This document shows positions 2,346-64,000 of a stretch of 64,000 nt of DNA, in pieces. The stretch is from Anastatus disparis. Its lineage: Eukaryota > Arthropoda > Insecta > Hymenoptera > Eupelmidae. Under the pieces are notes generated by a model. That model did not search any database, was not told where the DNA came from, and saw only the letters and a program-made list of their open reading frames with translations. The stretch spans positions 2,046,001 through 2,110,000 of the forward strand of contig JAFFSR010000237.1 of NCBI GenBank assembly GCA_017163975.1, read 5' to 3'. The stretch's first letter is position 1, and every line of letters begins with the position of its first letter. The translations under genes and the position numbers were made by a program.

Positions 2346-5300
2346 TTATAAGCATTGTTCTTTTATTTGTACAGACAATTCGGTCGACGCGACGGCCATC
2401 CATTCGTTGCTGTCCGATCTGTACCAAGTTAAACCCAGAGAGTATCTTCCGTTGAGATTGGCGTGTTGGCAATGACTGAACCACCAGCCGCCGTGATAAT
2501 TAGCTGCGCAATCGGTCGTGCTTATATCCATGTCACGATCTTTGGCACTGAATGCCATGTTGTTCTGATAAGACATTGCGTCGGTCGCATTGCCAGTGTA
2601 ATCAGCCACTCTTAACCTGTAACCGTGTTCCTCGCTGTCAACGCTGAAGCTTTCGTAATTGGCCACCCAATAATTGCCATCGATGTCGTTCAGTTCGATT
2701 CTCAATCTTGTGCAATTGTCTCGGCTGAGTTTGTGCAAGGCCTCGTTACCAGCCCAAAATTCGTTCATCGGCGAACCAAAACCAGTCGCGTAATCGTTCC
2801 ACGTTCTATCGAAGTCAACCGTACCGTCGACTCTTCTTCCAACGACTATCCAACCCTTTCGGCAAGCTGCCAATAACGGCGCACCTGGTCCAGGTGCTAA
2901 GAGCGTTAAACCATCTTTCTTTTCGCAATTACCCGGCAACGAGTCGACCATCATGCGATATTCATCCTCGACGTGCTCCAATTCCTTGGTCAAATTTTCA
3001 GCCTTTGATATGCTAAAGTTGAGATTGAGCTTCTTAAGGGTATCGTTTAGTCGATTTATGGAATCCTGTTGTACGTCGCTTTTTTCTTGTAATTTTGAGG
3101 CACTAACGCTCAATGCCTGCACGGCCTTTTTCAGATTACCAAGCTCTTCCCTGGTGAGCGATAATTCGGCTGCTTTTCTTGCTGCGTTCACGTCTAATCT
3201 AGCTATTTCGCGCTTACTTTCGGACTGATTGGCCACTATTTTTTCTTCCAACGTTTCCAAAGACTCGAACATCTGTACGACCGATTCACCGAAACGGGTC
3301 GATACCCCGACTTCTTGGCTGATGTTACGGATTTTTTCGGTCAAATCACGACCGATACTCTCGAGTATGTGAACACGGTGGGCCATGTTTTCTCTGTCCT
3401 CGTAAACAACGCGTTTTTCCAACAAAGCGCGTTTGCGCGACACAAGACCAATCTTGTGCTCTAATTTATTGAGCCTCTCGTCCAAACGACGCACTGCTGA
3501 TGGCAAACGCGAATATACGTGGCGAGTGTGATGAAGCAATTGCTGCTGCTGATCGTCGTTGTCAATTCTTGGTTGATGCGGCTGGATTATTTCGTTCTTG
3601 AACAGATCATCCTGCTGACGATTCTTGTCACGGCAGTCGTCGCATTTTATTGATTTCACTTCGATCTGCACGGTGCTCAACTGTAAACAAAAACAAAAGT
3701 TTGATTAATTATTAGTTTGAAATATTTTAAAATAATTAAATTATAAAATATAGAATTTTAATTGCTAAAAGTTAAATTGGCAAGAACCTGGTAAAAATGA
3801 AAGCACGTTCGTTAATTATAACACAATATTAACGATGCTGAAATTTGTAGTTTCAAACTATTTCATATTTCTACCTGGTTGAATACTGATTTTAATTAAG
3901 ATACATTTTTTTCCGCTCTATTTTATTCTTTTCACAAACTGAAATATTAAGTTGCTATTTTTATATTTTGATGAATTAAAAAAAAAGGAAGAAATTATTC
4001 ACTTAAACGTTAAAAGTTTTTTCATTAACTGGCCATTTTATTCGTCGCTTTGATATATAGAGGTAAATAATAAAATTTTAATGAAAAGGGGTTAATGAAA
4101 ATGTCAATACTGAAAGGAAAACGTATCGCACATTATCCACACACCTCCCCCAAAAATAACTTTTAACTTATATATAATATATGTGTCGATTCATTAAAAT
4201 TTAATCAGTTTCTGTCTTACACAGAAATTATTTATATTAGTTTGATATTTGTTGAAAATTTTAAATGATTTTGAAAATGCTTTATGAGCATTTGATATTT
4301 AACGGTATTTCGTACTCTTGAAATACCAATTTGATGAAATTATGTAAAACGTGAATAGTACTTCGTTAAATACTGAATATAGTAAACATGTTAACGTATG
4401 TACATTTATTTATTTTATTGAATAAAATTTACGTAAATTCAGCTATTGAACATTACAGAGTAAATATTAATAAAGCGATTGAAAGTGATTACATTATGCG
4501 CTTAAATTTGAAAATTAATAGATTACAATTGATTGATCATAATTAACATGAGTATTTACTGCAATACCCAATGTGTATTTACCTCGAACGCTTAAAAAAA
4601 AAGTCGAATACCCAATCAATAATTGAAACGTAAACTCTTCAAGGATTATCAATTTTTATCTATCCTTTCGTCAATCATAAAATACAATCGTAAAATCTTA
4701 AAAAGTCCGTCGGAAAATCATTCGGTATAAAACAGAGAAAAAATTTCTACAGCTCGACAATATTATATGACTGTAAAAGTTGACCAAGGTATATATACAG
4801 CGCAGCCAGTAGCATCATTAAATAAACGAGATGCGGCATTTTTTCCGCGTTTAAAAATAGTTTCTCTCTATACGAGCCTCCCTCCCGTATAGATATAACC
4901 CTTTTTTTTATATGTGTGTACGTGTATGTGTGTGTGAGCAAAGTAAAAGATAATCGTTCGATCGATCAACTAACTTATTCAAGCACAGGATATTCGTTTT
5001 TTTTTCATTTTCTCTCCTTTTCTTTCTTTCTTTTTTTTCCCGTATAGTCACCCTCTTGCGCTCTGTCGAACTTTTCTGTCAGACGCATACAAGCATATCA
5101 GATTATTATTTTTTTTTTTTTATGTACGTTATATATTACGAGTATAGGGTATAAAAATATCTTTTTAAAATCAGGTGGTTGTTTTTTTATATACTGATCT
5201 TTTTATTTAGTTGAAAATATTTAGTAGGTCGGGGAGATAGAGTTTATTTTTATTATTTTTTTTTGGTTTTGTGAGGGAGATTTTTCAATGATAAGAGATA

Positions 5301-35785: not shown

Positions 35786-36271
35786 GTAAGTTAAAAACTG
35801 TCGGTTTAATTTTGTTATTGCAATGTTAATTTTTCGCATAATATTTTTGCTCGTCATTTTGAAGAGGTTACGTTTTGGAATTAACGTTAAAAAATAAATT
35901 TGAATTTATTTGATTTTTAACGATTATTTTGTATCTTCTTAAAAGTATTAATTTAAATTGAATTGTATTTAAATACTTGATTTATTTAATAAATTAATTT
36001 TTTAAGTTCAAATGATTTATTAAATATATTTTTAACCTAAAGAATTTATTAAATCAAATGTAGAAAAATTTTTAGTATTGAATGTTAATGATAGTTTGTA
36101 TCTTGAATTATTAGGAGAATTCTCTTTGATTATTTTATCTTACATTCACTTGGCTATCGCTTAAACATGTTGACCAATCATTGTATTTCAGCAGATTGTT
36201 TCTGACACCACGGGTCATTCAAATATCAGACATAAGACTGGAATAGCTTAGAAAAGTTCAAGACATTTATC

Positions 36272-38657
36272 ATGAAACTCATTATTACATTTGCTATATT
36301 TATAGCAATCATCAATTCTGGAACAGCATGGCGAAATTTTATGTTAGGAAGAAAGAAAAATGGTAATCTTGGCGAGCCACCTGTATCTAATCTCCAAGAT
36401 ATACCAAAAGATCAATGGTTCACTCAAAATTTGGATCATTTTAGTCCAACGGAAGGACGTACTTGGAAACAAGTAAGAAATATTTTTAATTAATTTATTC
36501 ATAAAACTAAAAATTAACAATTTTATAATTGTTTTCATGATTATTTTTATAGCGATATTTTATGAATTCTGATTATTATAAAAAAGATGGTCCAGTTTTT
36601 CTCATGATTGGTGGAGAAGGGCCAGCTAGTGGAAAATGGATGGTAGAAGGTGGAATGATTGAGTATGCTAAGCAGTATGGTGCATTTTGTTTCTTATTAG
36701 AGCATCGATATTATGGATTGAGTCATCCAACATCGTAAGTGAAATCGATTGATTCTTAAATAATCTATTCTAAATCTATAATTTATATAATACATTTATT
36801 TATTACAAATATTTTTAATTTATTAGATTACTAAGCAATCAATTTCTATAAACTTTGTCACTGTTTTCATATAAATTAGTTTTCATATAATTTATATTTT
36901 ATTTCTTTAAAACAATTTAAATCCAAATTATTCAATATTTATTGTTTATTAGTAGTTATATTTGAGAAAATTAAATATTTATAAAATTATTTTTTTTTTA
37001 TTTAGGGATTTAAGTGTGAAGAATCTTGCATTTTTGAATTCGGAGCAAGCACTTGCTGACTTGGCTTACTTCATTGAAGGAATGCATTTGGCACATCAAA
37101 TACCTCACAGTGCTAAATGGATTGTATTTGGGGGTTCTTATTCTGGTTCATTGGCAGCATGGATGCGTCTTAAATATCCTCATCTTGTACATGGAGCTAT
37201 GTCTGCTAGTGGTCCCTTGCTTGCCAAGATTGACTTCCAGGGTTAGTAGATTTTTATTTTATAATTAAATTAAAATATTATTATCACTATCAAATTTGAT
37301 TGAAACTATTTATGCTAATAAGCAATTTAATTTAAAAAAAAAATTTCTTTAGTAAACTAGTTTAAATCATGAAGTGTATATTAAAAAATTTATATTATTT
37401 TAATAGTAAAGGATTTGTAATTTTAATGTATTGATATTAATTGCAGAATATTATGTGGTGGTTGAGAATTCATTGAAAACACATTCTCAAGCTTGTATAG
37501 ATGCTATAGCAGCTGCCATTAGACAAGTACACATAATGTTACGTCATCGCATTGGTCAACAAGGATTGGAAAAAATGTTTAAGTATGTAACTATATCTTT
37601 TTTTATGAATACTTACAAGTAATTTAACATGTATTGTTATATTTTAGTTTCTGTGATCCTATTGATTCTGGAAAAACAACATTAAAAGATATTGCCAATT
37701 TATATGAAACTCTTGCTGACAATTTTGCTGAAGTTGTACAGTATAACAAAGATAATCGTAACGAGAGTACTATAACTATTGATACTGTCTGTGATACATT
37801 AGTTAACGAGAAAAATGGAGTTCCTGTTAATAGACTTGCTGAAGTTAGTAATATGATACTTAAACAAAATAAAGAAAAATGTCTAGATTATAAATATGAT
37901 AAAATGGTTGGAGAATTAAGAAATATCACATGGGCTGAACAAAGTAAAGCTGGAGGTAATCAGTTATTTTTTTTTTATCAATAACAATGTTGTGAAAATT
38001 CATTTTTTTAATTTTTATTTTATTATTAGGACGTCAGTGGATGTATCAAGTATGCACGGAATTCGGTTGGTTCCAGACTTCCACTGCAAGACCTTATTTA
38101 TTCAGTGAAACTTTCCCTGTCGACTTCTTTATTCAGCAATGTGCTGATATTTTTGGTCCAAGGTTTGTAAAATAAGTTAAATTAATTAATGATTTGCTTT
38201 TTCTGTATAGACAAAGACATGTTTACTTTTGAATAAAACAAAAATATTTAAAGAAATATTGTTTATTTTCATTGCAGATTTTTACATACTGCAGAGTCTG
38301 GAGTTGAGCGTAGTAATACCATATATGGTGCTTTGGACTTGGTCAACGTAATTTCAAATGTTGTATTTGTACAAGGAAGCATTGATCCATGGCATGCTCT
38401 TGGTATCACAAAATCATCAAATCCTAATGCACCAGCTATTTTAATAAATGGTACATGTCATTTTTTTTGTTTCTTTGACTTCGTTTTGTGTATACATTTA
38501 ATGTTTATTCATCATTTTTTACTATATTTCAGGCACAGCGCATTGTGCAAATGTTTATCCACCATCACCAAAAGATTTACCAGCATTGACTGAAGCGAGA
38601 AAGCAAGTATCAACATTGATTGGTGAATGGCTTAAAGAAGAGAAAGTTAATTCTTAA
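36272..38657 (+). CDS. Secreted/lysosomal serine carboxypeptidase, peptidase family S28
   Basis: Eight exons: 36272-36472, 36553-36734, 37006-37241, 37447-37582, 37648-37955, 38030-38162, 38278-38450 and 38533-38657. All junctions are GT-AG with agreeing phases, giving 497 residues, normal for the family. Residues 1-19 are a signal peptide. Diagnostic motifs are IGGEGP, the EHRYYG element, nucleophile motif GGSYSG (Ser172), GSIDPWH (Asp435) and GTAHCAN (His460), so the triad is complete. S28 enzymes (prolylcarboxypeptidase, DPP7, thymus-specific serine protease) cleave after proline or similar residues near peptide ends in lysosomes or secretions. This protein looks most like the invertebrate K12H4.7/PRSS16-like branch, by memory of motifs. 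A polyadenylation signal follows at 38796. The gene's 3' end is also the left edge of the neighbouring tandem duplication. Confidence 0.93.
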
Positions 38658-41001: not shown

Positions 41002-44000
41002 ATGTCCAAAAGAACATTAACACCTTTAAGTTATAAAGACTTGAGTACGTCAAGTAGTTCAGATGCCTCAGATAACGAAATAAGCAACAATGGAAGTATA
41101 AAAATAAGGAAAGTATTTAAAAGAAGAAAGACAAACAAAGCTTCTTTGCAGATGTGCCCCAGGCATCCGGGTTTAACTAAAAAACATTTTCAATTATTCA
41201 TGAAATCAAGAACCACTTATATTAAATTAATTAAATTCATACATTCAAAAGAATTATATTTTGTAAAAAATAATGAAATTTGTTTATTCACAAAACAGAA
41301 TATAGAAGAGGCAATTAAATTTATTTTTAAAAGTCCCGATGAACAAACTAAAAATACATTTTCAAATAATATTTCAATATTTTTAAAAAAATATAATAAA
41401 GAAATCTTAGATGATTTAAAAAGTAAGTGTTTACAAAGTAAGAGGTATAATTTCATTATTTTTATTATAACGCTTAAAGTTTCATAATGTTTAATTGCAG
41501 ATTGGGATGGGCATCAGAAATTACCAGTGTTTGATCCAGAAAGAAAACTTTTAAGGATTTATATAAATGATATAGTTGATGTATTATTAAGAAGACAAGA
41601 ATTAAGCCATACACTGATCGACATTTTAATAGACAAAAAAGATCATGTTAATGATAAATACATGGACATTATATTACGTGACATTCACAAAGATGGAAAT
41701 CTAAATTATTACAGAAAATATTTAAAGTATATACTGCGTTATCATATTGAATTTCTGGTTGAAATTCTAAGTAAAAAATTAGTATTGAAAATTCATGAAA
41801 ATGATACAAGCCTTCTAAATAAAGAAAACGGTTGAGTATTAGAAACATAAGTGTATTAAAATAAAATATTTTTTTATTCATTGAATGTTTGGAAATAATT
41901 AATAAATTAAAATGATTCTGTAATAACAAGTTTTGAATGGGCTTTAAATTTTTATTTATTAAAATAAAATTGCAACTGAATTAAAAAATTAAAAAATTTT
42001 ATAGGTTTTACCCAACCATTAAATCAATTAGCAATATCAAATAAAAATGACAATGCACCAAGTATTAATGAAAATGATGATGTTTCAAAAAATCAAAGCG
42101 AATCACAACTGGATCAACTAAAAAAGTAAGTCACGTCTTTATTTTATTATTTGTTGATATACAGATGGAAATAGAAAGAACTGATAATAATACAAAATAT
42201 TATCAATTATAAAGTTTCGTAAATATTCTCAAATTTTGACTTAAAATTTTTTTTACTCAAAGTTATTATTTTTTTGTTTTTTTAATAGTTTTTGAAGTGA
42301 AACTTTTTTACCAACGGTATAAATCTCCCATAAGCGATGTATAAAAAAAATTATACGGGAGTGAATTGATTTCATGACGCTAGATGAAACGGAAGTGTAC
42401 TCCGTAAAGTAAAATCCAATTGGATTTCCAATTGAATTTTGTTGGAAATCCATGATGGAATTCTAATTGGAAATCCATAATGGGATTCCAATTGGAATTC
42501 ATTGGAATTTTAGAAATAGAATCGAATTTATGGATATTTATAAGCGATTAAAATAATATTTTTATAATATACATGTGTACATATAATAAACAGTTAATAA
42601 AAAGACTACAGCTAATTGAATTCAAACATATTATTCAATTTATTAATATAAATTTATATTAATTTATATATATATCATGTATACATTTATATTAATAAAT
42701 TAAATATGTTTATTAAATTCAATTAACTTTAGTCGAATGTGCCGAAGGAGCCGTCCCAACCCCAACACGATAAAACGACTAATAAACATCAGCTGAGTTT
42801 CTCTTTTTGTACACCAGAGGCGCTTTTTGCATAACATAGGCGCAAGGCTTAGACGAATGCTGCAATGTTTGGGGCAGCAGCAGCACAAAATCAAAGGACA
42901 AATTGTGTCGTGCGTTTTGGAGTTGGGCTGTACTAGTGAGTGCACTAATATTCTCTCAGTGTGTGGTTTATAGATACGGTATATAGTGAGAACTGATTGA
43001 GACGCTATTTTGAGGCCTGGTCTGTGTGGTACGTGCGTTGGCCTCGTCTTCGTTAATTTTTATTTATCCATCCACATTTGATCATATTGTGGAATTGAAC
43101 AAGTGTGCCCCGACGCATTATAATTTAAATACGCTAATAAAAAGTATTACACGTGGATACGGTAAATGTAGAAATAATTATATTTTTTTAATTTATAATA
43201 AATTTAAAAAAATGCCCTTATCGTATATACAAATTTACCCCTTACTTAAGGAAATTTTGAAAAAAACGATTTTTTTTTCAGTCATAAATAATTAAATACT
43301 TAACGCATAATAAAGAGTTAAGACCAATTTTTTTTTTTAAATTAGAAGTCTAAACTTAGAGTTAGTGCTTCTGTAAAGTTCATTAATTTACTACCGAAAG
43401 AGAAATATTCTCTCAAAAAAGTTTGTTCAAAGTAGTCCTGCACTTTCCCCTACAAATTGTTCAAGCCACCAGTTGCTTCTATATTTTGGAATCTTTTAAC
43501 ACATTCCATCTTATTTTAGATAAGAAGCCGTGTTAAAGTTTTCTGGAATTACTAGACTTATTATTTTGCGTCGGTTCAATTTCTTTTTTCTTTCCTATTT
43601 ATCTGGACATACGCCCGTAAAAATGTGAAAAGAGACGAAAAGTTTTTCTCTTTTCGGACTTTCGCTTAAAAAAATGATGAAGCAATATGGGCTATACCTT
43701 TTCTTTTTCTGATACTTTGATATAGTTTTAAGTTTTTATACTCTTTAATTTCTTGTACGTGAATTTATCAATACCGTTTTAATACTTTACTTTATGATTA
43801 GCATTGTTTTCCACATTTTGTTTACTGATTTTTTAACTTATAAGACAAGAAAACTTATGTAATCTTAAGTATAATATTTAAATTTTATCATTTTTTATAA
43901 TTGATAGAACAAATATGTGCACACATAATGAGACTTTGTATTGTAATTATAGTAATATAAAAGCAATATGCTTAAGTAGTAAGTAGTAATATCTTTTTAA

Positions 44001-47000
44001 TTCAAAAATCATCTACAATAAAACTAATACAGAATAGAGTTTTAAATGAGTTGAGGAAAGTTATAAATAAAATATCGTTTCTGGAATATAAAGAAAAAGT
44101 GCGCTTGTGTTTCTATGACAAGACTTTCATGTTAAAGAAATCTTAATCACGTTATATTTCAAGGTTTATAAAATTTTTAAGGATATCTTCATATCTCGTT
44201 AGATAACATTGACGATCCCTCTTTTTTGAAATACATTATCTGTTTCTTAAATTATATTTTACGATGTTTATCTTTAGGAAAGTGAGAGAATTCCTTGTTT
44301 GAGAGAAATTTAAAAGTCACTCTACTGGGGTAAAAATATAGAACACAAAACTTGAATCTCTGATAAGAATAATTTAAACATGCTGAATTTGTAATCATTT
44401 AATTACATAAGAAAAATTGAAATTTTGCAACAAAAAAAATTGTAAAAAAAATATGACTCACCTTTTTTTTCTGTCCTCCGGCCGGAAAGCGGCAACTTCC
44501 TGGCCGCTGCCCAAAACGAAGTTGCCGCTTTCCGGCTCCGTCGAGCAGAAAAGTGCATTACAACCCATAGCCAGTAAAAAAGAAAGCCTTAGATCATATG
44601 TAATTGTTGGCCCAGGCGAAGCCGAGGTTAATTATAAAATTTAATTTTACTTATTTAATTTTACTTTTATCTTGGTTTTCAGACTTGAAGAAAACATTTC
44701 AGTTTCTACAGAAGGAGGAGATTGCCTGAAAATGTCGGCAGTGATCGTAGAAAATTATATTTCATCTTTAACAAAACTCACAATTAATAGTAAACCATAT
44801 ATTATTAGGCTTACAACTTTGGCAGAGGAATTCATCGAACATGCACCCGCTATTGTTGAGGCAATTGAAAGTCATTTGAAAAAGGTTAATATCTTTTGTA
44901 GTTAAAATACTCAAAAATATATATTTTACTGTTATTGTATTATTGTTGTTAATGTTATTACTAATTTTACATGTTTATTGTAAATGCACAAAAATTAAAA
45001 TATTTTTTTACATTCTAAAAAAATTGTATATTCACCACGGAAGTAAATGAAAAACGCCTTAAATCGTATGTAAATTGTCACCCGAGCCGGAGGCGAGGTT
45101 TAATTAAATTATAATTAGCAATGATTTATTGTTATATCTGTATTATTTTATCTCTTGTTTTTTAATTTAATAATCTTCATGAATTGTAATTATAAAGTAA
45201 CATTGCTAAAGTAGTTTAAATTCTATAAGTATATGTTGCTAGAAAATTATTTAAATTCATTTCCTTGTATTAATTTTTAAAGTCGTCTGGCTATCATAAT
45301 AGAAGTGACTTTACTAAGATAAATTTGTTTTTTATTACTTTTAGTTATTCGATCTATAACCGGTTTATTCTATTTAAGAAGATTTTGTCTAAAATGTGTT
45401 TTGTTGAAATTATAATTTTAAATTATTTTAAAATTAAAAGTTGTCAAAGTTAAAAACAACAAAAAGGTAATGATATATTATTTTTTTTACTTTAGGTTAA
45501 ACCAGAAATCAAATTACCTGCCTTATATCTCATCGATTCGATAGTCAAGAATGTTGAGCAACCATATTTAGGTCTTTTCTCAAAAAATATTGTGAACACA
45601 TTTTGCAAGGTTTTTAAAAAGGTAATGTATAATTTATACTAGTATGGACTAGTATGGATTTTTTTTATCTTTTATTTTAGGAAAATTTTAAAGTGAATTA
45701 TTAAAATTAAATTTTTTTAAAAACAATAATAAAATTGAAAATTTTAAATAATCATTTTTTGTAATAAACCGTCATGAATTATAAGAAATTATCAAGGCTT
45801 TCATTGATTCATAAAGTTCTTTATAGCCTCAAATTCATTGATTCTAAATAAAAAAAATTTTCAACTTTTATTTACCATATACATTATAATTATCCTTTTA
45901 ATAATTATAATAAAAATAATCAGGTTGACGAAAACACAAGAGCTTCTATGTGGAAACTAAGGCAAACTTGGAATAATATCTTCCCTGCTAAGAAATTATT
46001 TGCTTTGGATGTTCGAGTTCACAATATTGACCCAGCCTGGCATATCACACCATTACCAAATAATAACGTGTCAACAGTCGATTCACGTGAATCCCAAATT
46101 TCTATTGGTAAGTGGAAATGGTGCAAATTTCAACCAATAAAAAATTTACAAAAAATATTTTTTTATTGGTTTAAAAAAATAAATATTACTTATTAATTTG
46201 TTTTAAAGATAATTTATTAATACGATATATAATAAATGTTTCTGAATAATTCATAATTAAATTTAAAATATTTGTTTATAAGTTTTATGTTCACAAATAT
46301 ATACTCATTTACTAATTTATTGTATTTTATTTATGAAAGATTATAAATATTTATTTATAAAGATTATTTTTCTTAAATTTGAATTTTAGTTTTTATCTGT
46401 TATATTTCTTTATTCGAAAAAATATAAAAAAATAATCATAACAATTAGTAACACCAAGTAATTTATAATAATCACTGATAAATATTGTTGTAGTCTTAGT
46501 ATCCTAGTAATCTGGAGTTTATAGACTTATTATTTTGTAAGGATTTTTTATTACTTTTTTCGATTTTCTTTTTAGTATGACAAACGGTTATAATAATTGT
46601 ATGAACATGAAGAAAGAAAACTGGATAAAAAAACTAACTAGAAAAGTGTTTCACTTTCGGGTCACCGATTTTGCTCAAATTTTGGGAATCTTTTCTGGAT
46701 GCGGAAACATGAAGAAAGACAAAATTTTAGAGACTAACATTCAATATTTCCCTAGTTACAGGCAATTGAAGAAAATCACTAAGAAGTTACTACATGTTCA
46801 AACGCTTATAGTTTCTGAGCATTGTTAGCTAGAAGATTATACCTTTTTCGAATGAGCTCAAATTCTTTCAAATAGCACCTATTAGCATCTCAAAATATTA
46901 TTTTTCCCTAAGTTATAGCGTAATAAAAATTGGACCAAAATTTTCTGTTTAAAACATTACCTTGGTCAAAATGTTCATTGAGGTTCGGAAAGATTCAGAT

Positions 47001-48509
47001 GTAAAAAAACCTTTCTGATTCTTTCCGGTTTTTGGTACTGGTCCATAATGAACCTTTTTGAACCCTTATGAAGAAAATTGTTATGATTGTTGTTGATACC
47101 TTCAGAATTTTTCCAATCCATCAAGTTTTATTGAAAAATGGAATCCGGAATTTTATTGTATATTATTATTTTTAGCTAACAATGCTGAGAAGCTATAAGC
47201 GTTTGAAAATTTAGTAACTTTTTTAGTGATTTTCTTCAATTACCTGTAACTAGGAAAATATTGAGCGTTGGCTTCTGAAATTTTGGCTTTCTTCATATTT
47301 CGGCAGCCAGAAAAGATTCCCAAAATTTGAGCAAAATCGGTACCCGAAAGTGAAACACTCTCATTGAAAGTCAAATTTTTGTAATTTTGAAATATTGGTT
47401 TTTTATATTTAAAATCAAGAGTAAATTAAATTGAACAATATGTAAATATCTACTTCTACAGTATTTTGCATAATAGAAATACTTGTTAATTTGTATTATA
47501 AACTCAATTTTTACAAAAATGCAACTTAAATAATTTTTCCAATGAATCATCATACTTTAGCAGCAAAATATTTATTAAATACATCTTATATTTTAATATA
47601 AAGAAGATAAAAATGATTTTATGTTATATTATTCTTCTCCAGTTTTTAATAGCGAAGAATCAACCAAAAATGACATATTACATTAATTTATTTATTTATG
47701 ATTACTACTTTGCATAGGTGCAGAAAATACAGTAGATCTAAAATTACAAGAAAATGTGGTAGATAGTAATGATCAGAAATCAATAGTAAATAAAGTGTCA
47801 TCAGAAACTTCTGAAAACGTTATATCATCTAGAAGTTTAAACGAGACTCAAGAATCCTTTGAAATTACCTCCAGTCAGCTTATTGATTCCATAAAAGAAG
47901 AATTCCATTTTGAAGACCAAAAGCCTCCAATACTGAATGGTGATATCATTACAATTGATGATTTTGATAATGAATTAAAACCAAATATCAAACTTGAGGA
48001 AAATAATGAAGGTGAATTAAATATTTTAGTTATTTTGTTGTTTCATAAATATCTTTAATTTATTAACTTTTAAATTTCAAAGTAGATGATATTACCAGTG
48101 AAATTTTCGATACATTAATGAACAATGAAATCTTGTTAGAATGGGATGTAATAAAAGATAAACATTTGATAAAATTCATATTAAATAATCCTGATGATCT
48201 ACAGAAAGATCGTGTAAGTAATAAAATTTTAATATTTTTTAATAAATTAATTATCTATTAAATATTTTATTTCAATTTATTTTCTAGACTTACAAAAAGT
48301 TACTAATGCTACAGCCCCAAATCTTTGAAGGATTCAAGCCAGAGAATTTGAGAAAAAGAAAAGACCATCTAGCTAATGATTATGAGTATTTAATTAAACT
48401 CTGTGGATTTGAAAAAATTAAAACTGAGCAAGAGAAAGTTATATTTGACAAAAGAATAGAATCACTTAGAAAATTAATGAATTTTTCCATCAAGATGGAA
48501 GTAGATTAA
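41002..48509 (+). CDS. Gene A: tandem-family protein with captured Pcf11-like CID
   Basis: Nine exons in one open frame: 41002-41422, 41501-41830, 42005-42125, 44683-44884, 45496-45621, 45924-46107, 47718-48011, 48083-48213 and 48288-48509, giving 676 residues with every phase matching. The ATG directly follows a 5'UTR acceptor, as in genes B and C. Residues 1-50 are basic and Ser/Asp-rich (TSSSSDASDNEIS). Residues 51-250 are two predicted helical blocks, the first after a CPRHPGLT motif and the second after DPERKLLR. Residues 251-290 are a polar linker. Residues 308-450 are a CID. Residues 462-559 are disordered and contain DIITIDDFDNE, a SUMO-interaction-like motif. Residues 560-676 are helical, perhaps SANT/Myb-like. 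Paralogues B-D lack the CID. I cannot name the host family; the CID suggests contact with RNA polymerase II. It could instead be an unspliced capture or a gene within a gene. Confidence 0.75.
44481..44536. repeat. GC-rich perfect 19-bp inverted repeat
   Basis: Arms GCCGGAAAGCGGCAACTTC (44481-44499) and its exact complement (44518-44536) enclose an 18-base loop, also GC-rich. This is compositionally foreign to the surrounding AT-rich DNA. It lies 150 bases before the first CID exon. A motif just after it (GCCTTAGATCATATGTAA and GGCGAAGCCGAGG) recurs in altered form at 45055-45100. Confidence 0.8.
44683..46107 (+). other. Pcf11-type CTD-interacting domain exons (captured)
   Basis: Three exons encode NSKPYIIRLTTLAEE, LPALYLIDSIVKNV, VDENTR, and FALDVRVHNIDPAW. 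These match the order and wording of the CID of Pcf11, the cleavage/polyadenylation and termination factor that binds the phosphorylated CTD of RNA polymerase II. The CTD-contacting Asp-Ser-Ile of YLIDSIVKN is kept. Introns inside the domain show copying from DNA, not from mRNA. No other part of Pcf11 (zinc fingers, Clp1-binding part) is in the window. The ATG at 44732 could be the original Pcf11 start, in which case the first 16 residues encoded by this exon derive from 5'UTR. Confidence 0.88.
46644..47360. mobile_element. Foldback element with inverted arms of about 200 bp
   Basis: The left arm starts AGTGTTTCACTTTCGGGT and runs to about 46835 (GAGCATTGTTAGCT). The right arm runs from about 47173 (AGCTAACAATGCTGAG) to ACCCGAAAGTGAAACACT at 47343-47360. 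The centre is unique, AT-rich and non-coding. Small open frames at 46577-46828 are translations of the arm. It sits in the gene A intron after the CID exons, exactly at the right end of the 5.2 kb insertion. Confidence 0.85.
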
Positions 48510-50453: not shown

Positions 50454-53400
50454 ATGTCTAAAAGAACAATATCAACACCTTCAAGATATAGAGACTGGAA
50501 TACATCAAGTAGTTCAGATGCCTCAGATAACGAAATAAGCAATGATGAAAGAAGGAAAATAAGGAAAGTATATAACAGAATAAAGACAAACAAAGTTTCT
50601 TTACAGATGTGTCCTAGGCATCCGGGCTTAACTAAACAACATTTTCAATTATTTCTTAAATCAGGAACTACTTATAGTAAATTAATTAAATTCATATATT
50701 CGAAAGGATTATATTCTTGGATAAGTAATGAAATAAGGTGTTTAACAAGCCAGAATATAGAAGAGGCAATTAAATATATTTTTGTATGTCCTGATCAACG
50801 AACTAAAAATACATTTACAAATAATATTTCAATATTTTTAAAAAAATATAATAAAGAATTATTAGATGATTTAAAAAGTAAGTGTTTACAAAGTAAGAGG
50901 TATAATTTTATTATTTTTATTATAATGTTTAACGTTTCATAATGTTTAATTGCAGATTGGCATCAACATCGGGAATTACCAATGTTTGATCCAGAAAGAA
51001 AACTATTAAGGGCTTATATATATGATATAGTTGATGTATTATTAAAAAGGCAAGAATTGAGCAATGCAATAATTGATATTATATCAGACAAATACATCAA
51101 TGATAATGATATGAACATTATTTTAAATGATATCCATAAAGATGAGGATCTAGATTATTACAAAAATTATTTAAAATTTATGTTGGCATATCATTATAAA
51201 CCTATGGTGGAAATTCTAAGTAAAAAATTAGTATTAAAAATTCGTGAAAATACTACAAGTCACTTGAATAAACAAGATGGTTAAGTATTTGAATAATAAA
51301 ATATTTTTTGTTCATTAAGTGTTTGAAAAAAATTAATTAATTAAATTATTAATGTAATAATAATGTTTTTATTAGTTTTAATTTATTCATATTTGCTCAA
51401 TGAAACAAAATTGCAATTGACTTGAAAAATTTTTAAATTATATAGGTTTTACCCAATCATCAAATCAATCAATATCAAATAAAAATGACAATACATCAAG
51501 TATTAAAAAAAATGATATTCTTTTGAAAAATAGCAATGAATCACAATTGAATCAACAGAGAAGTTAGTCACATTTTTATTTTTACTATTTGTTGATATCT
51601 AAAACGTTCATAATAATTAAATTAATATAAGAAACTGATTAAAGAAAAACAAGTCATATTTTTATAGTTTTGAATTATTGGCATTTTTATATCTAAAATC
51701 AAGAGTAAATAAAATTGAAAAATATGTAATTATAGCTGTTGGTAATAAAATTAAATATTTTACGATATTTTGCATTTAAAAAATATTTGCTCATGTACAT
51801 TAAACTCAATTTTCAAAAAAATGCGACTTGGATAATTTTTCTTTGCCAATTATATCAACAGAATATTCATCAATTTGTTTTGGATTCTAACAAAGAAAAT
51901 GAAAATGATTATATATCACATTATTCTTCTCCAGGATCTAATATGAAAGAATCAAAAAAAATTATTTCAAGCATGTTACATAAATTAATTTTATGATTGA
52001 TACTAGTTTTACTAACTAAACTTTTTTTAGGTATAGCGAATACAGCTCCTATTGAATTTATGATTAAAGTTCTAAGTAAAAAATTAATATTTAAAATTCA
52101 TGAAAATGCTACAAATCACTTCAACAAACAAAACAGTTAAGTATCTGAAACATATACATGGAATCAAAACAAAATATTTTTTTATTCATTAAGTGTTTGA
52201 AAATAATTAATAAATTAAATTATCGACCTATTGATAATTTTTGAATCAGCTTTAAATTTTTTTATGCTTATTCATAAAACTAAGATTGCAATCAACTTGA
52301 GAAATTTACAAATTTTCTAGGTTTTACTCAACCATCAAATCAATCAATATTAAATAAAAACAACGATACATCAAATATTAAAGAAAATAATACTGTCGTA
52401 AAAATTGAAAATGAATCACAATGGAATCAACAAAAAAGTTAGTTATATTTTTATTTTTACTATCTTTTAATATCTAAAATGTTTATAATAATTTAATTAA
52501 TATAGGAAACTGATTAAAGAAAAACAAGTCACATTTTTGTAATTTTGGATTATTGGTATTTTTATATTTAAAATCAAGAGTAAATAATTGAAAAATATGT
52601 AATTATCTAATTTATAGCTGTTTGTAATAAAATTAAATATTTCACTGTATTTTGCATTACAGAAATATTTGCTCATGTGCATGAAACACATTTTTCACAA
52701 AAATGCGATTTAAATAATTTTCTTAACAAATTATTATACTTTACTAATTATATTAACAGTAGAATATTTATTAAATTTGTTAACAAAGAAGGTGAAAATG
52801 ATTTTATATCACATTATTTTTCTCTAGAATCTAATGACGAAGAATCAATTAAAAAATAACACAAATATGTTATATTAATTAATTTATTTATGATCACTAG
52901 TTTTATTAACAAAACTTTTTATAGGTAGAGAAAATACTGTAGACCTGAAATCACAAGACAAAATGATAGATAATTATAGCAAAAAATCAACGGTAAATAA
53001 ATTTTTACCACAAAATCCTGGACTCATATCATCTACAAGTTTAATTGAAGCTGATAAATCTTTTCAAATTACCTCCAGTCAAATTATCAAGACAGAAAAC
53101 TTTGAAAATCAAGAACTTAATAGTGATATAATTACAATTGATGATTCTGATAATGAATTAAAAACAAATGTTAAGCTTGAGAAAAATAATGCAGGTAAAT
53201 TCAATTTCTTAGTTATTTCATTGTTTAGTAAGAACTTCAGATTTATGAATCTGTAAATTTTAAAGTTGATGTTGGCAGCAATATTTTTGATAAATTGAGA
53301 AACAATGAAATCTTGCCACAATGGGATGAAAAAAAAGATAAATCTTTAATAAGATTCATATTAAACAATCCTGATCATCTTCAGAAAGAACGTGTAAGTA

Positions 53401-61108: not shown

Positions 61109-64000
61109 ATGTCAGATAGCTCAGATTCCTCAGATTCTTCGGATACCTCAGATAGCTCAGATTTCTCAGATTCTTCGGATACCTCAAATAGCTCAGATTC
61201 CTCGGATATCGAAATAAGTAATATAGAAGAAACTGATGAAAGAATAAGAACAATGAAAGAATGTAAAGAAATCAAGGCAAAGGAAATATCTTGTAGACAT
61301 CCGGGTTTAACAAAAATGAATAATCAATTATTTGTTAAATCAATAATTCATTATATTAACTTAATTAAGTTAATTCATACAAATCGATTATATTCGCTCA
61401 GAAATAATGAAATTACATCATTAAGGAGACAGAATATTATAGAAGAGGCAATAACCTTGACTGCTAAATCTCCAAGTGATATTTCATTATTTTTGAAAAA
61501 GTATGAAAAAGAAATCTTGAAGGATTTAAAAAGTAAGTATTTATGAAAAGTTAATATTTATACTATTTACTATATTATTAAAATATACGTTTGATAATGT
61601 TTATTTGCAGATTGGAATGAAAATCAGGAATTACCAGAGATTGATCCACAAAGGAAACTTCTAAGGAGTTATATAAGTGATATAGTTGATGTATTATTAA
61701 AAAGGCTAGAATCAAGCTATACTTTAATAATTGACATTATACTATACAAAAACATCAATAATAAAGATATGAACATTATTTTAAATGCCATTCACAAAAA
61801 CGATGATCTGAATTACTATATGAAATATTTAAAATATATAACGGTTTTTCATAGAAAAATTTTAGTTGATATTCTATGTGAGAAATTAATATTAAAAATT
61901 CACAAAAATGCTGAAAGTTACCCAAAGAAACAAGATGGTAAAGTATTTTAATCATTTATGCATTGAAATATGTTTTCATTAATTTAATACTTTTAAAAAA
62001 TGGAATAGAATTATAAATTTTATATTGGCTTAACCTTTTGTTATATTAGTTGATAGAAAAAAAATTGTGATTAAATTGAAAAATTAAAAAATTTTATAGG
62101 TTGCACACAACCATCGAATCAGTCAACAGCATCAAATAAAAATGACAATGCACCAAGTATTAGTAAAAATAATAATGTTTCGAAAAATGAAAGTGAACTA
62201 CAATTAAATGAACAAAAAAGTAAGTCATGTCTTTATTTTTATTATTTGTTAATATGAAAAACGTTCATAATAAGTAAGTCATGTCTTTATTTTTATTATT
62301 TGTTAATATGAAATACGTTCATAATAAGTAAGTCATGTCTTTATTTTTATTATTTGTTAATATGAAAAACGTTCATAATAAGTAAATATCTAAAGGAATA
62401 TCAAGAGCTGTAAGTTGTAAAGACTCAAATACATCGAGAAAGAGAAAGAAAGAATCTGTCAGACATCCAGGTTTAACTGAAAATTATTTTGAATTATTTT
62501 TTAAATCAGAAATCCATTATATTGACTTAATCAAGTTTATACATACAAAGGGATTATATTCTTTGACAAATAATGAAATTACGTTATTAACAAAACAGAA
62601 TATAGAAGATGCAATACAATTTATTTTTATATGTCCTGATCAGCAAATGAAAAATATGTTTTCAAATAATATTTTAATATTTTTAAAAAACTATGATAAA
62701 GAAATTTTAGATGATATAAAAAGTAAGTATTTACAAACTAAAAGTTAGTATTTTTATCATAATTTTTATCAGAATACTTAATATTTTATGTTCAATTGCA
62801 GATTGGTACGAGCATGAAAAATTACCTGAGGTTAATCCACAAAGAAAACTTTTAGGGATTTATATGAATGTCATAGTTAATGTATTATTAAAAAAGCAAG
62901 AACTAAAAAGAACAATAATTGCCATTTTAAAACGCCAAGAAATCAAAGATAAAAATATGAATATTATATTAAATGACATTCACAAAGATGGTGATCTTTC
63001 TTTTAATTATTACAGAAATTATTTAAAATATATGTTGAGGAATCATTACAAATCTATGGTTGAAATTCTATGTAAGAAATTAGTACTTAGAATTCGTAAA
63101 AATGACGCAAATCACCAAAATAATCAAAATGGTTAAGTATTTCAAACATTTATGAATTCATCTAGTATTTTAAAAAAATGAATAAATTAAATTATTACTA
63201 TATGATAATAATTTTTGCATTTCAAATTTCTTATATTTTTTTATTTGAAAAAGATTCTAATTGACTTGAAAATTTTTTTTTATTTTATAGGTTTTAGTGG
63301 TCTTACTCCAGCATTAAATCAATCAGCAGCATCTAATAAAAATAGCAATACACCAAGTATTAATAAAGATGGTGATGTTTCAAAAAATGAAAGTGAATTA
63401 GAATCAAAGCAACAGAAAAGTAAGTCACCTCTTCATTTTTATTATCTTTAAATATAAAAAGCGTTCATGATACTTGCATTAATGTGGAATTCTATGACTA
63501 AAAAAATAATTAACTATATATATATAAGAATTTCATTTTTAGAATTTTAAAACATTTGCATTTTCGTACTTAAAATTGAGGGTAAATTAAATTGAAAAAT
63601 ATTTACATATTACCGAAAATATCAAACATATAGCTGTTGGCAAAAAAATAAATTATCCTACAATATTTTGCATAACTGAAATACTTGAAAATATGCATTA
63701 CACTTAATTTTCACATAGTAGGACTTACATAATTTTTTGAACCAACTTCAATAGTCAAAAAATATTTATTATCAAATATGTTTTAGATTCTAACAAAGAA
63801 GATGAAAATGATTTTTTATTATATTATTCTTGTTCAAAATCTAATAATAAAGAGCCTACTTAATCTAACACAAGAAGATTACATTAATTTATTTATTTGT
63901 GATTACTAATTTCATTAAAAAAATTTTTTTAGGTACAAAGGATACAGTAGATCCAAAATCACAAGAAAAAATTGTGGATAGTAACAGTCAGGAATCAACA
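61109..64000 (+). CDS. Gene D: tandem-family protein with doubled N-terminal module (partial)
   Basis: Exons 61109-61532, 61611-61937 and 62100-62219 form the first module. Exons 62396(?)-62722, 62802-63131 and 63291-63419 repeat it. Exon 63933 onward is the disordered segment, cut by the window edge. All phases fit if the second module's first exon is entered after ATCTAAAG, where an AG gives the right frame, though the pyrimidine tract is poor. The original ATG is lost in both modules: near 61080 ATGTCTAAAA reads ACATCTAAAA, and at 62386 it reads ATATCTAAAG. The proposed start at 61109 opens a Ser-Asp repeat of about 30 residues that replaces the usual basic start. The expected transcript may use the acceptor ttttttcag at 61067. 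Alternatively the second module is the relic of a fifth gene without a promoter. Confidence 0.6.
62220..62381 (+). repeat. Three tandem copies of a 54-bp sequence carrying splice donors
   Basis: Copies at 62220-62273, 62274-62327 and 62328-62381 are identical except for one base in the second (GAAATACG for GAAAAACG). Each starts GTAAGTCATGTC, the donor region of gene D's third exon, so the donor is present three times. A partial fourth start (GTAAATATC) runs into the second N-terminal module. Confidence 0.92.

Follow-up and report, generated by a model that had tools for sequence, protein, structure and literature searches.

Gene A, the subject of this report, lies on the plus strand at positions 41002-48509 of a 64,000-nucleotide stretch of Anastatus disparis DNA, referred to here as the window. 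Its nine exons join into 675 codons plus a stop codon with every junction in phase, and no internal stop, which the original prediction had named as a sign against the gene, interrupts the frame in this assembly. The head, consisting of exons 1-3, and the tail, consisting of the last three exons, are common to the tandem neighbours of gene A, and the middle three exons encode a CID of the type found in Pcf11, a transcription termination factor. Head exons 1 (41002-41422) and 2 (41501-41830) were aligned with eight other heads of the family, and exon 3 (42005-42125) ends in phase 2. CID exon 1 (44683-44884), the first 49 bases of which are coding here, is followed by CID exon 2 (45496-45621), containing YLIDSIVKNV, and by CID exon 3 (45924-46107), containing VDENTR and FALDVRV. 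The tail is made up of exons at 47718-48011, 48086-48213, and 48288-48509, the last of which ends in the stop codon. The first tail exon contains DIITIDDFD, which we take to be a SUMO-interacting-like motif.

The CID of gene A and its host family

The three Pcf11 CID exons were confirmed at the positions claimed for them, by their coordinates, by Pfam, and by matches to solved structures. The Pfam CID profile scored 55.6 bits in the whole gene A protein (cut-off 23.9), and the CID itself reached 59.4 bits, on a par with the 59.7 and 58.2 bits of two Pcf11-type genes of the same genome on contig C237, termed X and Y, respectively. Among solved structures, the best matches were chains of the yeast Pcf11 CID (78.5 bits), and the next relative was RNA-binding protein 16, also named SCAF8 (37.7 bits). 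Alignment to yeast Pcf11 demonstrated that the triplet Asp-Ser-Ile at yeast positions 68-70 is kept in gene A. According to the excerpt of PMC8263057, this triplet, within the domain that binds the C-terminal domain (CTD) of RNA polymerase II, is altered in the yeast mutant pcf11-13, and the excerpt of PMC4627417 describes a preference of Pcf11 for CTD phosphorylated at serine 2.

The CID of gene A resembles the N-terminal CID of Pcf11 in sequence, exon structure, nearest relative, and the Asp-Ser-Ile triplet. It differs in its last dozen or so residues, which are frame-shifted in gene A, and in its surroundings: the Pcf11 helical domain follows the CID in the C237 Pcf11 gene, whereas the CID of gene A sits mid-protein, and Pfam found neither the helical domain nor any other Pcf11 domain beyond the CID in the gene A protein. 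A CID is also shared with SCAF4, SCAF8, RPRD1B, and RPRD2, all of which bind serine-2-phosphorylated CTD according to PMC4627417, and with Nrd1 and Rtt103. The solved CIDs of proteins other than Pcf11 are further off, at 37.7 bits or below. We know of no other CID protein joined to a family like that of gene A.

The head and tail could not be assigned to an mTERF-like or other known fold, as their matches in Pfam and among solved structures were weak and below any cut-off. The most suggestive of these, transcription factor SPT6 against exon 2 (E 0.034), was not relied on. No relatives of the family head were present in the viral contigs searched, and the CID had no match in the prokaryote contigs searched, as expected for a eukaryote. 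An Rfam scan of the window returned 0 matches.

Copies of the family were counted within C235:2006001-2270000, the 264 kb around the window, where the array extends from gene A to C235:2162415. The original prediction described three paralogues, B, C, and D, without the CID. Genes B and C are indeed complete and lack it, but D is no complete gene in its own right, consisting of exons 1-3 alone and sharing one tail with the next head, E; this tail lies mostly to the right of the window. Gene B additionally carries an internal tandem duplication (window 51376-52550, 875-bp spacing) that repeats exon 3 together with a portion of exon 2.

A copied Pcf11 segment in family intron 3

Homology between gene A and gene B, as assessed by blastn, ends at 42160 and restarts at 47368, and B has just 52 bases between the matching points. 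Therefore, approximately 5.2 kb has been inserted into family intron 3 of gene A (42187-47364, ends approximate). The left part of the insertion contains a dispersed repeat (42411-42734) and a second one (42772-42962) that stops where homology to Pcf11 starts; at least 90 matches were found for the 804 bases queried, and 40 of 1714 candidates were scored. The copy of the 5' part of Pcf11, with its introns kept, occupies 42962-46371 on the plus strand and corresponds to C237:310663-305978 on the minus strand. A further repeat (44467-44629) lies within a copied Pcf11 intron. An inverted-repeat element (46645-47359) with 190-bp arms (89.5%) bounds the insertion on the right. This element was considered as a possible carrier of the whole insert, although its arms have no match at the left end. 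The stretches 42187-42410 and 46372-46644 had no identified match.

We searched the own genome (939 Mb, 399 contigs) for the CID. The search gave at least 29 matches: the three window exons, six exons at two loci on C237, and 20 stand-alone copies on C218. X, at C237:304-311 kb, is a Pcf11 gene, with PF20845 (Pcf11_helical, 61.1 bits) in a reading frame located downstream of its CID. Y, at C237:287-293 kb and about 18 kb from X, is a second Pcf11-like gene as judged by its CID. The CIDs of X and Y differ by 1.35 synonymous substitutions per synonymous site (dS), and the ratio of the non-synonymous rate (dN) to dS is 0.13 over 131 codons. Between 42962 and 46371, the insert aligns with X in six collinear blocks, introns included, at 86-94% identity; one extra out-of-line match of 58 bases (76%) lies 3 kb away in X. 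Matches to Y are limited to the three CID exons (72-80%) and a single 75-base stretch in the opposite orientation. X is thus the nearest Pcf11 gene found, because blocks and introns align to it and nearly the CID exons alone align to Y. The copied introns indicate DNA-level copying, and a retrocopy origin was rejected on the same ground. The stand-alone copies on C218, with a match of 30-32% to the CID, are not the source. Both parents of gene A, the family copies B-I and the Pcf11 gene X, are therefore present in the same genome. The dS of 0.095 between the CID of gene A and that of X, together with distances of 0.047-0.079 for the surrounding non-coding pieces, is in keeping with the fairly recent fusion proposed in the original prediction.

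Since the analysis has one assembly as its basis, Pcf11 sequence misjoined into the intron was weighed as a source of the arrangement. This is extremely improbable. The aligned blocks of the copy are 6-14% off the nearest Pcf11 gene and further from the other, and the copy has indels of its own, so that it is no stray duplicate of X or Y; moreover, family sequence restarts cleanly at 47368.

Some 200 bases separate the start of the copy from the conserved splice donor downstream at 43162, which we take as the end of the Pcf11 5' untranslated region (5'UTR) exon. The 2 kb upstream of X has no match in the insert left of 42962. Because this upstream sequence was not carried over, transcription would proceed from gene A's own promoter. 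A GC-richer interval at 42701-43100 was examined as a Pcf11 promoter and discarded: more than half of it consists of dispersed repeats, and X's upstream sequence is not in the insert.

Reading frame and selection

All eight junctions agree in phase, as originally predicted, but six of them link one family exon to another or one Pcf11 exon to another. The decisive pair, 42125/44683 and 46107/47718, fits solely through one extra base and a 2-bp deletion. At the first, CID exon 1 can be used only if exon 3 exits in phase 2, which it does in gene A alone; in all nine other copies (eight heads and the internal duplicate of gene B) it exits in phase 1. The extra base of gene A, at 42119, is absent from four aligned copies and, as judged by exon length, from all nine. 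At the second, the tail needs phase 1; CID exon 3 exits in phase 0 in X and in phase 1 in gene A, where 2 bp are deleted between 46075 and 46076 compared with X. Both joins are in frame because of these two changes, and loss of either would put the fusion out of frame. The earlier statement that the last CID exon has exactly the phase that the family exon at 47718 requires is accordingly true, but the agreement is a derived state and not a lucky match of intron phases. We infer that both indels arose after insertion, under selection. A chance of 0.027-0.045 for an in-frame insertion, computed before X was found, is superseded by the indel argument.

The first 49 bases of CID exon 1 are open in the frame of an ATG at 44732; they presumably correspond to 5'UTR in Pcf11, with 44732 as the native Pcf11 start. 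Only two of the eight combinations of CID exon inclusion reach the normal stop, namely the full set and the set without exon 2, and skipping the CID entirely leads to a stop at codon 307. Splicing would be expected to include all three CID exons, with selection as the probable cause of their retention.

The internal ATG raises the possibility of a shorter fusion, in which transcripts begin within or close to the intronic repeat or the putative 5'UTR exon, translation starts at 44732 to give a CID-tail protein of 368 residues, and the head is separate or dead. The stretch up to donor 43162 is kept, the 368-residue product is open, and the 2-bp deletion is required for it as well as for the long form. 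However, the sequence upstream of 42962 consists of dispersed repeats rather than the 2 kb upstream of X, and the extra base at 42119, which fits the long form only, would be left to chance. We regard this shorter product as quite unlikely.

The main rival is neutral drift in a young pseudogene: the insertion broke gene A, and the open chimeric frame is luck. For the CID, we placed the same number of changes on its inferred ancestor in neutral simulations with four settings, scoring the results with CID profiles. With sites of unassigned change given to the window branch, the fractions of stop-free runs scoring as well as the window CID were 0.006 and 0.001; with these sites given to X, they were 0.154 and 0.008. 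An earlier run of the simulation gave 0.007 and 0.016. In the tail of gene A, the ratio of non-synonymous to synonymous changes on its own branch was 15:11, against about 3.25:1 expected (binomial 0.027), and the same test gave 0.11 and 0.16 for the tails of B and C.

Several observations weigh against a functional fusion and in favour of drift. The dN/dS comparison of the CID with the host Pcf11 gene, suggested in the original prediction, yielded dN 0.091, dS 0.095, and a ratio of 0.95 over 143 codons, and alone does not show purifying selection. When changes were polarised with Y, 14 non-synonymous and 2 synonymous changes fell on the window branch and 6 and 4 on X, with 7 sites unassigned; a ratio of 14:2 is compatible with neutral drift. 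The distance of the CID exons (0.072) falls inside the range of the surrounding non-coding pieces, an intron-like substitution rate. Under neutrality, 26-39% of runs leave the CID without a stop. One of the four profile settings, at 0.154, is not significant, and each profile was built from three or four sequences. The changes in the head (16.5:7.5) are not clearly under the neutral 3.25:1. As for the frame, the exon-by-exon alignment requires the 2-bp deletion alone, whereas aligning the joined CID exons more loosely opens three gaps; the shifted frame covers the final residues of CID exon 3; and, given a frame-changing indel, the chance that it suits the frame is about one half for each.

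The evidence of selection on the fusion is therefore mixed. Nevertheless, the two indels both suit the fusion and are the sole frame changes when the exons are aligned one by one, the CID profile score is kept above neutral in three of the four settings, and the tail appears constrained, which makes a mere passenger unlikely. From its sequence, we read gene A as a coding gene, the CID of which is changing fast, yet is still a CID.

Predicted function and re-use of the Pcf11 CID

Taken as a whole, gene A is probably a young chimeric gene, in which a copy of the 5' part of Pcf11 came to lie in intron 3 of an orphan-family member and which encodes a predicted CTD-binding head-CID-tail protein. 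The interpretation offered in the original prediction stands as regards a Pcf11 CID within a tandem family member, in frame on both sides; its proposal of CTD binding is carried forward as a prediction from the kept residues. Chimeric genes are a known kind, and the architecture is new. In Drosophila yakuba, as far as the excerpt of PMC5460883 extends, chimeric genes arise by partial DNA duplication and exon shuffling, and gene A is like them in that a partial gene copy is joined to a host gene. Compared with the chimeras in that excerpt, gene A differs in that the phases of its parents mismatch and one indel at each join mends them. We found nothing in the literature on duplication of Pcf11 or its CID in insects, and no Pcf11 fusion was among the matches listed.

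In the proposed sequence of events, the copy of the Pcf11 CID would have landed in family intron 3, and the two indels would then have brought the frame into fit. The CID of gene A may dock on serine-2-phosphorylated CTD late in transcription, and docking would bring to the 3' ends of genes both the family head and the tail with its SUMO-interacting-like motif. The predicted protein would probably compete with Pcf11 itself; because the parts of Pcf11 that follow the CID are absent from gene A, competition is the simplest effect.

Elsewhere in the array, two heads in a row precede one tail at three loci: that of D and E (window 61109-64000, extending to C235:2110749), C235:2134061-2137745, and C235:2140951-2144373. 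All six heads of these loci have an exon 3 ending in phase 1. Two further tails, J (C235:2147363-2150821) and K (C235:2159519-2162415), have no family head directly upstream and instead follow a distinct group of open frames, which, from their position, would be joined to these tails. Given the double heads per tail and the other frames upstream of J and K, heads and tails appear to have been re-sorted, and the intron after exon 3 appears to be a spot that hosts extra modules. Elsewhere in the window, a fibrinogen C-terminal domain protein (Pfam, 162 bits) is encoded at 2349-3704 on the minus strand, and exons at 36236-38590 resemble what we take to be a serine carboxypeptidase of the S28 kind.

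The stand-alone CID copies on C218 number at least 20 and are of the Pcf11 type, without introns in those that were read. Eighteen form a tandem array (C218:13823154-13870368), mostly at a spacing of about 2.87 kb, and two of these have a TGA inside the match. The other two are dispersed (C218:12472495 and 12478983, at 12.47-12.48 Mb), and each has the repeat found at 44467-44629 of the window within 2 kb. Of the 20, five were read. Four have an uninterrupted frame of 207 residues, and the copy that begins the array has changes at each end. No difference separates the two intact members of the array that were read. Between array and dispersed copies, dN is 0.15-0.18 and dS 0.47-0.49, with the values of one array copy that fell out of register left aside, and on this basis the stand-alone type looks constrained. 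These genes are like the CID of gene A in being Pcf11-like (30-32% identical), and unlike it in that they are read as a single intronless open frame, of about 207 residues in the intact copies examined, with a C-terminal part of their own. We also noted a SCAF8-like CID gene, judged by eye, at C235:6264712-6267984, and at C248:9630303-9633800 its exons occur once more, in an apparently decayed state.

The chimera, the 20 or more stand-alone copies, and the additional Pcf11-like gene together amount to a striking re-use of the Pcf11 CID in this one genome. The extent of this re-use leads us to suggest, tentatively and as less likely than not, that the genome repeatedly makes free-standing polymerase-docking proteins, lineage-specific rivals of Pcf11 for serine-2-phosphorylated CTD that might retune or sabotage termination in a manner resembling genetic conflict. 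For gene A, a single genome suffices to read both parents, the copied segment and what surrounds it, and the two indels that suit the frame, which makes the succession of events leading from insertion to an in-frame fusion testable. If the protein is made, the polymerase-docking domain of Pcf11 would have been re-used with unrelated modules, and gene A would provide a natural test of how a CID acts when severed from the remainder of Pcf11.

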